DNA from: Ornithinimicrobium tianjinense
Lineage (GTDB): Bacteria; Actinomycetota; Actinomycetes; Actinomycetales; Dermatophilaceae
Assembly (NCBI RefSeq): GCF_014636495.1
Contig: NZ_BMEM01000002.1
Coordinates: 62,001 to 126,000 of the forward strand
Reading direction: 5' to 3'
Length of the DNA stretch: 64,000 nt
Position numbers and translations under genes: made by a program. The notes under the pieces are model-generated. The model made no database searches, was not told where the DNA came from, and worked only from the letters and a program-made list of their open reading frames with translations. This document shows, one piece after another, positions 25,732-49,183 of this stretch (within the stretch, counting starts at the first letter, position 1; every line of letters starts with the position of its first letter).

Positions 25732-26735
25732 TGTCCGAGATGCTCTCGCTGGAGTTCATGCGCACCGCGTTGCTCGCCGCCCTCTGCGTCGGGCTCGTCG
25801 CGCCGATGGTCGGGATCTTCCTGGTCCAGCGCCGGCTGTCCCTCGTCGGCGACGGGATCGGGCACGTCGCGCTCGCGGGTGTCGCCGTCGGCGTCGCGAC
25901 ACAGAACAGCCCGGTGTGGTCTGCGCTCGTGGCCGCCGTGCTGGCCTCGGTGCTCATCGAGCTCGTCCGGGCCCGGGGCCGCACGTCCGGCGACCTCGCG
26001 CTCGCGCTGATGTTCTACGGGGGTATCGCCGCCGGGGTCGTCATCATCAATCGCGCCGACGGCGCCCAGACCGGCACCCTCACCGGCTTCCTCTTCGGCT
26101 CGATCACGACCACTTCCCGGGAGGAGCTGGCGCTCTTCGCCGCCCTCTCGGTCGTCATCGCCGGCGTGGTCCTCCTGCTGCGCCAGCGGTTCTTCGCGGT
26201 CGCCGGCGACGAGGAGTACGCCAGGGCCAGCGGCCTGCCCGTGCTCGCGCTCAACATCGTCCTCGGCGTGCTCACCGCCGTCACCGTCGTCGTGGCGATG
26301 CGGGTCATCGGCCTGCTGCTGATCAGTGCCCTCATGGTCATCCCGAACGCCGCCGCCCAGCAGCTCTCCGGCAGCTTCCGGGCCGCCGGCCGCTGGGCGG
26401 TCGGCTTCGGCGTGCTGGCCTCTGTCGGCGGGGTCATGGCCTCCTACCAGCTCGACACCGCCGCGGGCGGCACGGTGGTGCTGCTGGCGATCGCGGTCTT
26501 CGTGGCCGCGGCCCTGGCCGGGTCGCTGCGGCGGGCCCTGGCCCGGCGACGGCACCGGCACGCCGAACGACACCTGCACGAGCACGGCCCGGACTGCGGT
26601 CACGCCGCGGTCCCGCACGGTGACCACGTGGACTACCTGCACGACGGTCACCGTCACGCCGCCCACGAGGGCCACTACGACGAGCACGCCGACGAAGCGC
26701 ACGTCCAGCCCGAGCCCGAGGAGGCGAACCGATGA
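25731..26735 (+). CDS. znuB: Zinc ABC transporter permease with His-rich C-terminal tail
   Basis: 334 residues of the ABC-3 family with about eight membrane spans (TALLAALCVGLVAPMVGIFL, VGDGIGHVALAGVAVGV, VVVAMRVIGLLLISALMVIPNAAAQQL). The final 60 residues are cytoplasmic and extremely His-rich (RRHRHAERHLHEHGPDCGH and HDGHRHAAHEGHYDEHADEAH), likely a zinc buffer or sensor at the inner mouth of the channel. The ATG at 25731 forms TGATG with znuC, and the stop overlaps zur by four bases. The tail is the unusual feature; most ZnuB proteins lack one this long. Confidence 0.92.
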   Translation: MSEMLSLEFMRTALLAALCVGLVAPMVGIFLVQRRLSLVGDGIGHVALAGVAVGVATQNSPVWSALVAAVLASVLIELVRARGRTSGDLALALMFYGGIAAGVVIINRADGAQTGTLTGFLFGSITTTSREELALFAALSVVIAGVVLLLRQRFFAVAGDEEYARASGLPVLALNIVLGVLTAVTVVVAMRVIGLLLISALMVIPNAAAQQLSGSFRAAGRWAVGFGVLASVGGVMASYQLDTAAGGTVVLLAIAVFVAAALAGSLRRALARRRHRHAERHLHEHGPDCGHAAVPHGDHVDYLHDGHRHAAHEGHYDEHADEAHVQPEPEEANR

Positions 26736-27148
26736 GCACCGCACCGAGCCAGCGACGTCGCCCGACACGCCAACAGTCGGCCGTCATCGAGCGGCTGGGG
26801 CGCAGCGAGGACTTCACGAGCGCCCAGGACCTGCACGCCCGGATGCGCGAGGCCGGCGACAAGGTCGGCCTGGCCACCGTCTACCGCACGCTGACCGCGC
26901 TCGCCGCCAACGGCGAGGTGGACATGATCCGCACCGACGAGGGTGAGGCCGTCTACCGGCGCTGCTCCACCGGGCACCACCACCACCTCGTGTGCCGCAG
27001 CTGCGGACGGACCGTGGAGATCGAGGGCCCGGCGGTCGAGCGCTGGGCGGACCGGGTCGCCGACGAGCACGGCTACACCGACGTCGAGCACACGCTGGAG
27101 ATCTTCGGCACCTGCCGGGAGTGCGCCGCCCGCACCCACCACTCCTGA
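26732..27148 (+). CDS. zur: Zinc uptake regulator, Fur family
   Basis: 138 residues. The winged-helix N-terminus (RPTRQQSAVIERLGRSEDFTSAQDLHARMREAG, then LATVYRTLTALAANGEVD) is followed by the dimerisation domain with metal motifs HHHHLVCRSCG and FGTCRECAARTHHS, the two CxxC pairs of the structural zinc site. It should repress this operon through the 23905-23919 box when zinc is plentiful. The TGA stop at 27146-27148 abuts the first unit of a 22-bp repeat array. Confidence 0.94.
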   Translation: MSTAPSQRRRPTRQQSAVIERLGRSEDFTSAQDLHARMREAGDKVGLATVYRTLTALAANGEVDMIRTDEGEAVYRRCSTGHHHHLVCRSCGRTVEIEGPAVERWADRVADEHGYTDVEHTLEIFGTCRECAARTHHS

Positions 27149-27300
27149 CCGGACAGGCGTTCTGCACGGACCGGACAGGCGTTCTGGACCGACCGGACAG
27201 GCGTTCTGGACCGACTGGACAGGCGCTCTGGACCGACCGGACAGGCGCTCCGGACCGACCGGACAGGCGTTCCGGACCGACCGGACAGGCGTTCTGCACA
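27148..27300. repeat. Seven-unit tandem repeat, 22-bp period, core ACCGGACAGGCG
   Basis: Cores start at 27148, 27170, 27192, 27214, 27236, 27258 and 27280, exactly 22 bp apart. Each unit is the 14-base ACCGGACAGGCGTT (or GCT/GCC variants) followed by 8 bases such as CTGGACCG. One core has a C-to-T change (ACTGGACAGGCG). The array begins at the zur stop codon and ends about 45 bases before the uppS 3' end. There are no unique spacers. The same core occurs around fumC. Confidence 0.95.
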
Positions 27301-27344: not shown

Positions 27345-28133
27345 TCAGGCGCTCGGCGTGTCCACGGCGCCGCCGTAGCGGCGGTCGCGCGCGGCATACT
27401 CCTCGATGGCGGCCCAGAGGTTGCGCCGGTCGTAGTCCGGCCAGAGGACGTCCTGGAAGACCATCTCGGCGTAGGCGCTCTGCCACAGCAGGAAGTTGGA
27501 GGTCCGCTGCTCCCCCGAGCTGCGGACGAAGAGGTCCACGTCCGGCACCTCCGGGTGGTAGAGGTAGCGGCCGATGGTGCGCTCGTCGATCCCGCGCGGC
27601 GACAGCCGACCCGACCTCACGTCCTCACCGATCCGGCACACGGCGTCGGCGATCTCCGCGCGACCCCCGTAGTTGACGCAGAAGTTGAGCGTGATGCGGT
27701 CGTTGCCCCGCGTCTGCTCCTCGGCGCGCTCCAGCTCGGAGATGACCGACCGCCAGAGCCGGGGCGTCCGCCCCGACCAGAGCATCCGCACGCCCCACGA
27801 GTCGAGCTCGTCGCGGCGCCGGTGGATGACCTCCCGGTTGAAGCCCATCAGGAAGCGGACCTCGTCGGGGCTACGCCGCCAGTTCTCCGTCGAGAAGGCG
27901 TAGGCGCTGATGCACGTCACGCCGATCTCGATCGCGCCGGCGATGACGTCGAGCAGGCTCGCCTCCCCCGCCTCGTGTCCCTGGGTGCGCCTCAGCCCAC
28001 GCTGGTTGGCCCAGCGGCCGTTGCCGTCCATGACGATCGCGACGTGCCGCGGCACCAGGTCCTGGGGCACGGCGGGCGGGCGGGCGCCGCTGGGGTGCGG
28101 GAAGGGCTGCTGGTAGGCGCGTGCACCGGCCAT
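27345..28133 (-). CDS. uppS: Isoprenyl transferase (undecaprenyl/decaprenyl diphosphate synthase)
   Basis: 262 residues, cis-prenyltransferase making the lipid carrier for cell-wall synthesis. The catalytic Asp is in [28 protein letters not shown] and [23 protein letters not shown] are conserved binding segments, and the [10 protein letters not shown] stretch is typical. An N-terminal Pro-rich extension of about 25 residues ([14 protein letters not shown]) is usual in actinobacteria. It lies four bases after recO, and the pair is cotranscribed. Confidence 0.95.
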
Positions 28134-42145: not shown

Positions 42146-42180
42146 TCTACGCGGGTCTGCCGGGTGCTCGGCCCCTCCCG

Positions 42181-42226
42181 ACCGGACAGGCGCTCGTGCC
42201 ACCCACCCCTCCCGACCGGACAGGCG
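42181..42226. repeat. Two copies of the ACCGGACAGGCG core, 34 bp apart
   Basis: ACCGGACAGGCG starts at 42181 and 42215. The copies are embedded in a longer near-identical unit (CCTCCCGACCGG, then CAGGCGCTCGTGCC). They lie in the hrcA-fumC gap, upstream of fumC, and share the core of the 27.15 kb and 43.7 kb arrays, though the period here is 34, not 22. Confidence 0.9.
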
Positions 42227-42270
42227 CTCGTGCCAGCCGCCCTGGCGCCGTGTCGTCCTACGATCGGGGC

Positions 42271-43677
<1,407 letters not shown>

Positions 43678-43704
43678 GAGCACCGCCCGCGCAGCCCCTC
43701 GCCG

Positions 43705-43793
43705 ACCGGACAGGCAGGACGGCCGGTCCGGCAGCAACGCCTGTCCGGTCCGGCAGCAACGCCTGTCCGGTCCGGCAGCAACGCCTGTCCGGT
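43705..43793. repeat. 22-bp-period repeat array downstream of fumC, mostly inverted
   Basis: One direct core ACCGGACAGGCA is at 43705-43716. Three reverse-oriented cores CGCCTGTCCGGT start at 43738, 43760 and 43782, again exactly 22 bp apart. The unit on the minus strand is ACCGGACAGGCGTT plus GCTGCCGG, so it shares a 14-base core with the 27.15 kb array but has a different 8-base part. The opposed copies can form a hairpin after fumC. Confidence 0.93.
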
Positions 43794-43860
43794 CGGGTCT
43801 GGGGAGTGATCGAGGCGTGGCGAGCCTCACCCGCCACACCCGTCTCACGGCATACCCTCG

Positions 43861-49010: not shown

Positions 49011-49051
49011 TCTCGGCGACCTGCGTCGAGGCGGACCTGGCCGACCGTGCG

Positions 49052-49183
49052 CTCAGATGCGGCGCTGCCCCAGGTCGGTGATGGCCCGCCCTGTGCTCAG
49101 ATGCGGACGTACGCCAGGTCCGTGATGGCGCGCCCTGTGCTCAGATCCGGACGTACGCCAGGTCCGTGATGGCGCGTCCCGCC
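49052..49183. repeat. Three tandem 44-bp units containing the trmB 3' end
   Basis: Units begin CTCAGAT at 49052, 49096 and 49140. The last unit is the true end of trmB (residues [11 protein letters not shown] and stop). The middle unit differs at few positions and would still encode [12 protein letters not shown]-stop; the outermost is more diverged (GRAITDLGQRRI-stop). The period of 44 is not a multiple of three. Confidence 0.92.

Follow-up and report, generated by a model that had tools for sequence, protein, structure and literature searches.

A dispersed bipartite repeat at gene ends of Ornithinimicrobium tianjinense and its dialects in congeners

An array of 22-nt units behind a zur-like gene

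The window, the whole 64,000-nt stretch of O. tianjinense DNA analysed here, contains a gene for a Fur-family regulator (zur-like, 138 aa; 26732..27148, plus strand; PF01475, E 5.6e-31). An uppS-like gene (262 aa; 27345..28133, minus strand) converges toward it, and between the two lies an array of seven 22-nt units starting GACCGGACAGGCG (27147..27300, plus strand). Tandem Repeats Finder describes this array as 27147-27296, with a period of 22, 6.8 copies and 93% matches. The cores start at 27147, 27169, 27191, 27213, 27235, 27257 and 27279. Six of the seven are exact, and the fourth, GACTGGACAGGCG, has one change. The first unit overlaps the TGA stop codon of the regulator gene: its initial G and A are the last two letters of the TGA, which is followed by CCGGACAGGCG. 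An earlier note on this DNA had reported seven cores at 22 bp with few variants, located between the zur stop codon and the 3' end of uppS, and both the array and its placement are confirmed. That note did not include two further loci in the window, nor a second box, TGCC, that belongs to the element as it is defined below. The units of the zur array lack this box (for example, TTCTGGACC), which makes the array atypical.

When the core was searched for with up to two mismatches, 22 matches were found in the window; 100 shuffles averaged 10.55 matches and reached at most 18. The two further loci flank a fumarase-like gene (Lyase_1 / FumaraseC_C; 42271..43677, plus strand) on both sides. Upstream, two units at period 34 (GACCGGACAGGCGCTCGTGCC plus a linker; 42180..42235, plus strand) lie between two divergent start codons, 35 nt in front of the gene. 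Downstream, a lone core with one mismatch (GACCGGACAGGCA; 43704..43716, plus strand) lies 26 nt past the stop codon and is convergent with three identical 22-nt units, GACCGGACAGGCGTTGCTGCCG (43729..43794, minus strand). An RNA-family scan of the window at gathering thresholds found two tRNAs and nothing else. A 44-bp tandem repeat (49051-49176, 2.9 copies) is located at the end of a predicted minus-strand gene. A TGA is present in each of its listed units, and the repeat thus appears to include the stop codon.

Copy number, consensus, and period of the element

The core, ACCGGACAGGCG, has 234 exact matches in this 3.3-Mb genome (130 forward and 104 reverse), and the pattern written backwards has none. 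Each of 185 further genomes from the family, of which 30 belong to the same genus, has 0-7 matches. Splitting the pattern by the letters that follow it located 233 of the 234 places, with one left over, and the loci fetched from this genome (the own loci) and the window together contain 234 exact cores. Most of these lie outside predicted genes (222 of 234), with the other 12 inside. Genes outside the window were predicted by a codon-usage gene finder trained on the window rather than taken from a curated annotation. The zur array is not a zur-specific feature but one site of a dispersed repeat family.

The element is a directional bipartite 20-mer, ACCGGACAGGCG-NT-NN-TGCC. Its consensus was taken from 239 units in 60 locus-and-strand sets, with arrays weighted equally, and reads (G)ACCGGACAGGCG, T (60%), T (87%), two free positions and TGCC, the letters of which are found in 79-95% each. 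On the 5' side of the core there is a weak preference for C and nothing more. A 17-base pattern, ACCGGACAGGCGNTNNTGCC, has 176 exact matches here and none in 395 other genomes of the order.

Thirty-four arrays were cut into units. The period is 22 in 23 of these arrays and 26, 27, 29, 32, 33, 34, 37, 40 or 42 in the other 11, where the length beyond 22 nt is a locus-specific linker. A 22-nt unit consists of the 20-nt element and one letter on each side. Since the 22-bp period is mainly the length of the element and other arrays run at 26-42, helical phasing is not required, and the former interpretation of the spacing as two helical turns can be set aside.

A larger mobile unit was considered and rejected, as the stretches shared between loci are the arrays themselves (among the matches listed, 59 of 2447 alignment lines). 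A plasmid or phage source was rejected as well: at E 1e-5, nothing in plasmids or phages matched the zur array. Six viral contigs have one match each to the 17-base pattern, which by a rough estimate is close to chance for such a collection. We found no mention in the literature of the core string, nor of anything on this repeat family.

At one fetched locus (L122, 3410-3537; L-numbers denote fetched loci), four units with a spacing of 42, 42 and 22 bp lie inside a predicted ABC-transporter-like reading frame, so the element may be translated there. Runs of N occur within or beside the arrays at L091, L099 and L105 in this assembly, and some arrays may therefore exceed their counted length. 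Contig C1 begins and contig C3 ends in closely related array sequence.

Position and polarity relative to stop codons

An array run was defined as a single exact core, or as at least two cores with no more than one mismatch each. According to our own gene finder, 70 of the 84 runs are flanked by two genes, 7 fall within a gene and 7 are located at the edge of a stretch. In the 70 intergenic runs, 5' ends that face a stop codon are within 15 nt of it or overlap it in 35 of 51 cases, and 3' ends that face a stop codon are within 15 nt in 8 of 47. Run ends that face a start codon are rarely close to it (1 of 19 for 5' ends and 1 of 23 for 3' ends). The 19 of 70 runs with a 5' end facing a start codon count against a gene-end rule. 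Eight further clusters were retrieved only once the rule was known, and in these it held in 5 of 9 cases.

Eleven runs begin exactly at the GA of a TGA. Of 38 gene ends of this genome with a nearby first unit on the same strand, 13 have a stop codon that overlaps this unit: 11 as T-GACCGG (the hyphen marks the start of the unit) and 2 as a TAG that lies within the unit. Neighboring runs in opposite orientation that both have at least two units converge in 11 cases and diverge in 1, which is found in the alternating locus L110. With single units included, 20 pairs are convergent and 5 divergent. A stricter filter, limited to runs with an exact 13-mer, gave 29 of 44 for 5' ends, 8 of 42 for 3' ends and 9 of 9 convergent pairs. 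The wider recount was used for the main figures because this filter hid the one divergent pair in L110. Under the stricter filter, the runs at L119 and L209 were also counted as far from a stop codon, and in both the stop codon lies inside the first unit. Orientation alternates at only a few loci (L110, L114, L112, and the single-unit L202 and L089/L117). At L090, L100, L111, L114 and L120, almost all of the space that separates the convergent genes is occupied by the array, with a 3' distance of -10 to 10 nt.

Genes with arrays at their 3' ends include those for Fur, RecX, cytidine deaminase, exonuclease VII, malic enzyme, an ABC transporter, and an AMP-binding enzyme of the acetyl-CoA synthetase type. 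A Pfam scan of 20 genes adjoining arrays found mostly unrelated functions; three of the genes encode metal- or ArsR-type regulators, two encode histidine kinases and two amidohydrolases. This mixture does not support a regulon of zur or of one pathway.

Constraint within arrays and RNA folding

Mismatches to the consensus of each array were counted in the 34 arrays. There were 56 mismatches in 1980 core positions, 25 in 660 TGCC positions, 41 in 330 at the two free positions and 124 in 637 in the rest, so that both boxes differ at 3-4% and free positions at 12-21%. Because the arrays had been found through the core, the count was repeated with reciprocal seeds in 22-bp arrays of the 46 own loci. 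Core-seeded arrays had 23 of 584 mismatches in TGCC vs 110 of 584 at free positions, and arrays seeded only with the right half had 47 of 1548 in the core vs 97 of 516 at free positions. In this comparison the free positions are the two middle ones, the first and the last, and the significance of the counts is indicative only because the units of one array are related. The boxes decay less than the free positions, which argues against slippage or dead copies alone. The earlier note had held that a core without constraint would speak against its idea, and the counts contradict such a lack of constraint.

For units that end in CCTGCCG or GCTGCCGG, a hairpin containing a bulged A is predicted, with an energy of -8 to -10 kcal/mol. 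The predicted folds of units with TTAGTGCC or TTCTGGACC are no more stable than those of shuffled sequences. For whole arrays, the folding z score is below -2 in 8 of 34 in the sense direction and in 15 of 34 in the antisense direction. With many units and arrays having no stable fold, folded RNA is not the conserved feature, and a structured 3' UTR element, which had been suggested before, is not borne out as a consistent fold. The unit consensus is followed by no T run and there is no consistent hairpin, so the pattern of an intrinsic terminator is not seen. A hairpin much more stable than shuffles was found 3' of 1 of 15 unpaired arrays, vs 6 of 26 control gene ends. A strong hairpin lies downstream of the array at L091 (judged by eye) and at L124.

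Arrays with other cores in congeners

A search for the core with three mismatches across the genus gave 338 matches in this genome (21 for a reversed control), 132 (26) in G113, 96 (10) in G132 and 61 (25) in G108, where G-numbers denote genomes of congeners. Most other congeners had 30-70 matches vs controls of 15-35. As most congeners exceed it about two-fold, the reversed control is too low. The G108 count is thus not unusual by itself, and what speaks for G108 are the arrays that were subsequently read there; its matches in this search include pairs at exactly 22 bp.

The arrays in G108, G113 and G132 again have a period of 22 and a GCC-like box, with another core. This core is ACCGGACGCGCG and variants of it in G113 and G108, and ACCGG(A/G)CGGTCG in G132. 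Intergenic cores of the AG, GC and GGT type in the fetched stretches number 222, 0 and 0 in this genome, 0, 10 and 0 in G113, 0, 0 and 9 in G132, and 0, 12 and 0 in G108, with the G108 and own loci mostly picked for matches and G113 and G132 sampled blindly. Counts of tandem ACCGGAC pairs in random stretches are by themselves modest, with nine in G113 (permuted words: mean 1.2, maximum 15) and four in G108 (mean 0.5, maximum 6). There were none in G132, because its core differs. In G123, G124, G116 and G106, k-mer and tandem scans of 178-200 kb each found no genome-wide family. The earlier note had proposed looking for arrays at several intergenic loci in different species as a sign of function, and these were found, at dozens of loci here and in three congeners with their own cores. 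It had also taken absence from close relatives as a sign to the contrary. Taken literally, such an absence holds for this sequence and this locus, but at least three congeners have arrays of this architecture built on a different core.

Placement at gene ends was also counted in these genomes. In G132, 4 of 5 stop-facing 5' ends and 0 of 4 3' ends are within 15 nt, and three overlap TGA by GA. In G108, 6 of 7 stop-facing 5' ends are within 15 nt, but so are 4 of 7 3' ends, and the small G113 sample has 0 of 2 stop-facing runs that follow the rule. Some genes end inside the first unit: three in G108 with APDAR-stop, two in this genome with PDRR-stop and one in G113 with PDARS-stop. All 21 stop-overlapping gene ends share a single reading frame with respect to the element. 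Stop codons seem to be available in the element in this frame only, and the shared frame is therefore at least partly forced; 49 of 234 own exact units have a stop triplet in that frame.

The end of the zur gene could be located in 17 of 29 congener zur loci, and none of these 17 has such an array. One near-core is found at the G110 zur locus. Unrelated tandem repeats after stop codons occur in congeners too. In G124, the zur orthologue has an unrelated 22-bp tandem repeat (GAACACGCCAAAGGGCTC...) right after its stop codon (L172 8907-8981; L147 from 1901), and 200 kb of the G124 genome contained no second cluster of it. In two cases (L100/L213 and L120/L248), arrays are present in two species at orthologous gene ends, and by a rough reckoning, sharing by descent at these two ends is not clearly above chance. 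With only two shared ends, the sites of arrays turn over fast. In G107, an array with a 32-bp period contains ACCGGACCGGCC (L220, ~2400-2600) and is possibly another dialect.

The sequence TTRTCCAC(A/C), which we take to be the usual form of the DnaA box, is found behind some elements. In 400 kb of G113, 5 of 5 such boxes sit behind an element at constant spacing (L230 19808; L242 14064 and 14106; L248 3716 and 3787). In the own loci, 2 of 5 boxes are behind an element at an equal offset (L100 3771 and L205 2693), and of 19 boxes in the samples of six other congeners, one is preceded by a sequence that loosely resembles the core. Where it is seen, the box comes after the last unit of an array or after a single unit. 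In this genome, 2 of 106 terminal cores have the box, background hits included. The shared box module ties the dialects together as one family and weakly raises a link to DnaA. No replication initiator was found among the 20 Pfam-scanned array neighbors. The former term iteron, in its replication sense, is not supported by loci that are dispersed at unrelated gene ends, nor by a zur array that matched no plasmid or phage at E 1e-5.

Comparison with known repeat systems

The family resembles REP, BIME and REPIN sequences in its high copy number, its extragenic dispersal as a short repeat (222 of 234 exact cores outside predicted genes), the many copies right behind stop codons, the clusters at gene ends, and the lineage-specific sequence classes. 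Roles in delimiting gene ends have been proposed for the REP elements of E. coli. REPs of E. coli often lie within 15 nt of a stop codon and reportedly stall ribosomes there (PMC12306157), and in a published REP table a 5' GTAG is frequent and some elements begin with GTGG (PMC2817692). The 5' GTAG tetranucleotide is not found in the present element. In contrast to REPs, there is no consistent palindrome here, with some units folding and other common ones not, and the first unit often overlaps the stop codon. Unlike BIMEs, the arrays are mostly head-to-tail and alternate at few loci only. A search of this genome for RAYT (Y1 transposase, PF01797) had no match at E up to 1, at which a very divergent or unassembled copy is possible, and there were matches in 10 of 14 control genomes. 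A RAYT-driven REP was rejected on this result. We found no literature on REPINs with RAYT in Actinobacteria. Since neither RAYT nor GTAG was found, we term the family REP-like in behavior and not REP.

The iterons of plasmid origins are direct repeats of ~17-22 bp that occur with DnaA boxes. The present arrays are like them in their 22-bp direct repeats and, in G113 and at two loci of this genome, in an end module that resembles a DnaA box; they differ in having dozens of chromosomal gene-end loci, no initiator among the 20 scanned neighbors, and variable spacing. The DNA uptake sequences (DUS) of Neisseriaceae are not known to form 22-nt tandem arrays. The likeness to DUS is that of a short directional dispersed word with species dialects (PMC3630211).

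A possible gene-end signal and alternative explanations

The stop-adjacent arrays and the dialects of congeners suggest a gene-end recognition system rather than random slippage. The explanation that we favor, at about even chances, is a REP-like family of gene-end signals that differ in dialect between species and are maintained by a sequence-specific recognition just behind stop codons. This explanation builds on the dispersal of the element, its bipartite constraint, its position and polarity at gene ends, the convergent pairing, and the dialects of congeners, all of which are observed. From these we infer a reader, its effect and a mode of copy movement. The directional 20-nt element stands in sense orientation right behind the stop codon or overlaps it, and is multiplied locally as whole 22-nt units or as a unit plus linker. 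Most likely, a sequence-specific factor would read it in linear form, either in the nascent transcript or in the DNA immediately past the stop codon. This factor would delimit the gene end by causing the ribosome, the polymerase or 3' exonucleases to pause or by blocking them, and would insulate converging genes. Copies would spread and homogenize within a species, and the core would change between species. Species dialects would then result if the element co-evolves with its reader, or with the spreading machinery. Uniformity within a species could also be due to recent copying, which leaves the unequal mismatch rates along the unit unexplained. A more far-reaching version is a gene-end punctuation system of an actinobacterial genus, in which a 20-22 nt directional signal is locked to the stop codon (by the T-GACCGG overlap or an in-frame stop in the unit), a factor co-evolves with the dialect, and each species rewrites the signal across its own gene ends. 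We put this version forward tentatively and consider it rather doubtful.

A selfish REP-like mobile repeat without a host function is possible, although we would sooner expect it to be wrong. Such a repeat would be copied by a recombinase or transposase other than the Y1 type, gene ends would be its tolerated or preferred target, and its uniformity would reflect recent spread. The high copy number restricted to one species, the dispersal, the turnover of sites between species and the period of exactly 22 nt in 23 of 34 arrays all fit this explanation, and the TGA overlap could be a target preference. It sits poorly with the missing Y1 transposase domain, with the polarity relative to stop codons and with the 11 of 12 convergent pairs. 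In addition, dead copies should mutate evenly, whereas mismatch rates in the boxes are lower by a factor of 3-7 than those at the free positions and in linkers. Plain tandem slippage without function has hardly any probability left. Local duplication is evident, and unrelated repeats follow stop codons in congeners, but slippage cannot bring one set of 17 specified bases to dozens of loci that are unrelated, or keep both boxes while other positions change. As a full account, which the earlier note had allowed for, it fails against 234 dispersed cores, 176 matches to the 17-base pattern and constraint on both boxes.

Transcription termination by RNA hairpins, with each unit folding as CCGG(A)CAG...CTGCCGG, is unlikely. 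The units with a stable predicted hairpin and the five loci where the array nearly fills a convergent gap are in line with it, and the frequency of hairpins after arrays (1 of 15, vs 6 of 26 in controls) suggests that arrays may stand in for terminators. Yet the TTAGTGCC and TTCTGGACC units fold like shuffles, few arrays fold well in the sense direction (8 of 34, vs 15 of 34 antisense), the variable positions that pairing would need are free, and a strong hairpin follows the array at both L091 and L124. A chromosomal protein-binding array for replication or nucleoid organization, hinted at by the DnaA-box-like TTNTCCACA module at the last unit in G113, appears very improbable. All five boxes in G113 and two of five own boxes share their spacing behind the element, but the box is found at 2 of 106 own terminal cores, and 1 of 19 boxes in other sampled congeners is preceded by anything core-like. 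Moreover, the arrays are genome-wide and placed by gene ends, and their periods range from 22 to 42. What stands of the earlier interpretation is a constrained core at many intergenic loci with arrays in other species; slippage without function as a full account, a meaning of the two helical turns, a consistent 3' UTR fold and a replication iteron are not supported.

If the gene-end signal is real, several species of the genus would tag their gene ends with a short word. The sequence of this word would drift between species, and its architecture (22 nt, two boxes, stop proximity) would be retained. The family would then be a natural system for studying the spread and persistence of REP-like repeats without a RAYT transposase, and for asking if stop-side sequence-specific signals shape termination in high-GC bacteria. 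Array length may vary between strains, which might be of use for typing.

Other repeats in the congener samples

Two other repeats were seen in the sampled congener genomes. The word GGTATGCCGTG (reverse CACGGCATACC) is scattered and over-represented in the samples of G108, G113, G116, G124 and G132, with 24 seen in the G113 sample vs 2.8 expected. The enriched word in G123 belongs to a 29-bp tandem repeat at contig ends (L157 1-95 and L160 10278-10354), which is of another kind than the arrays.
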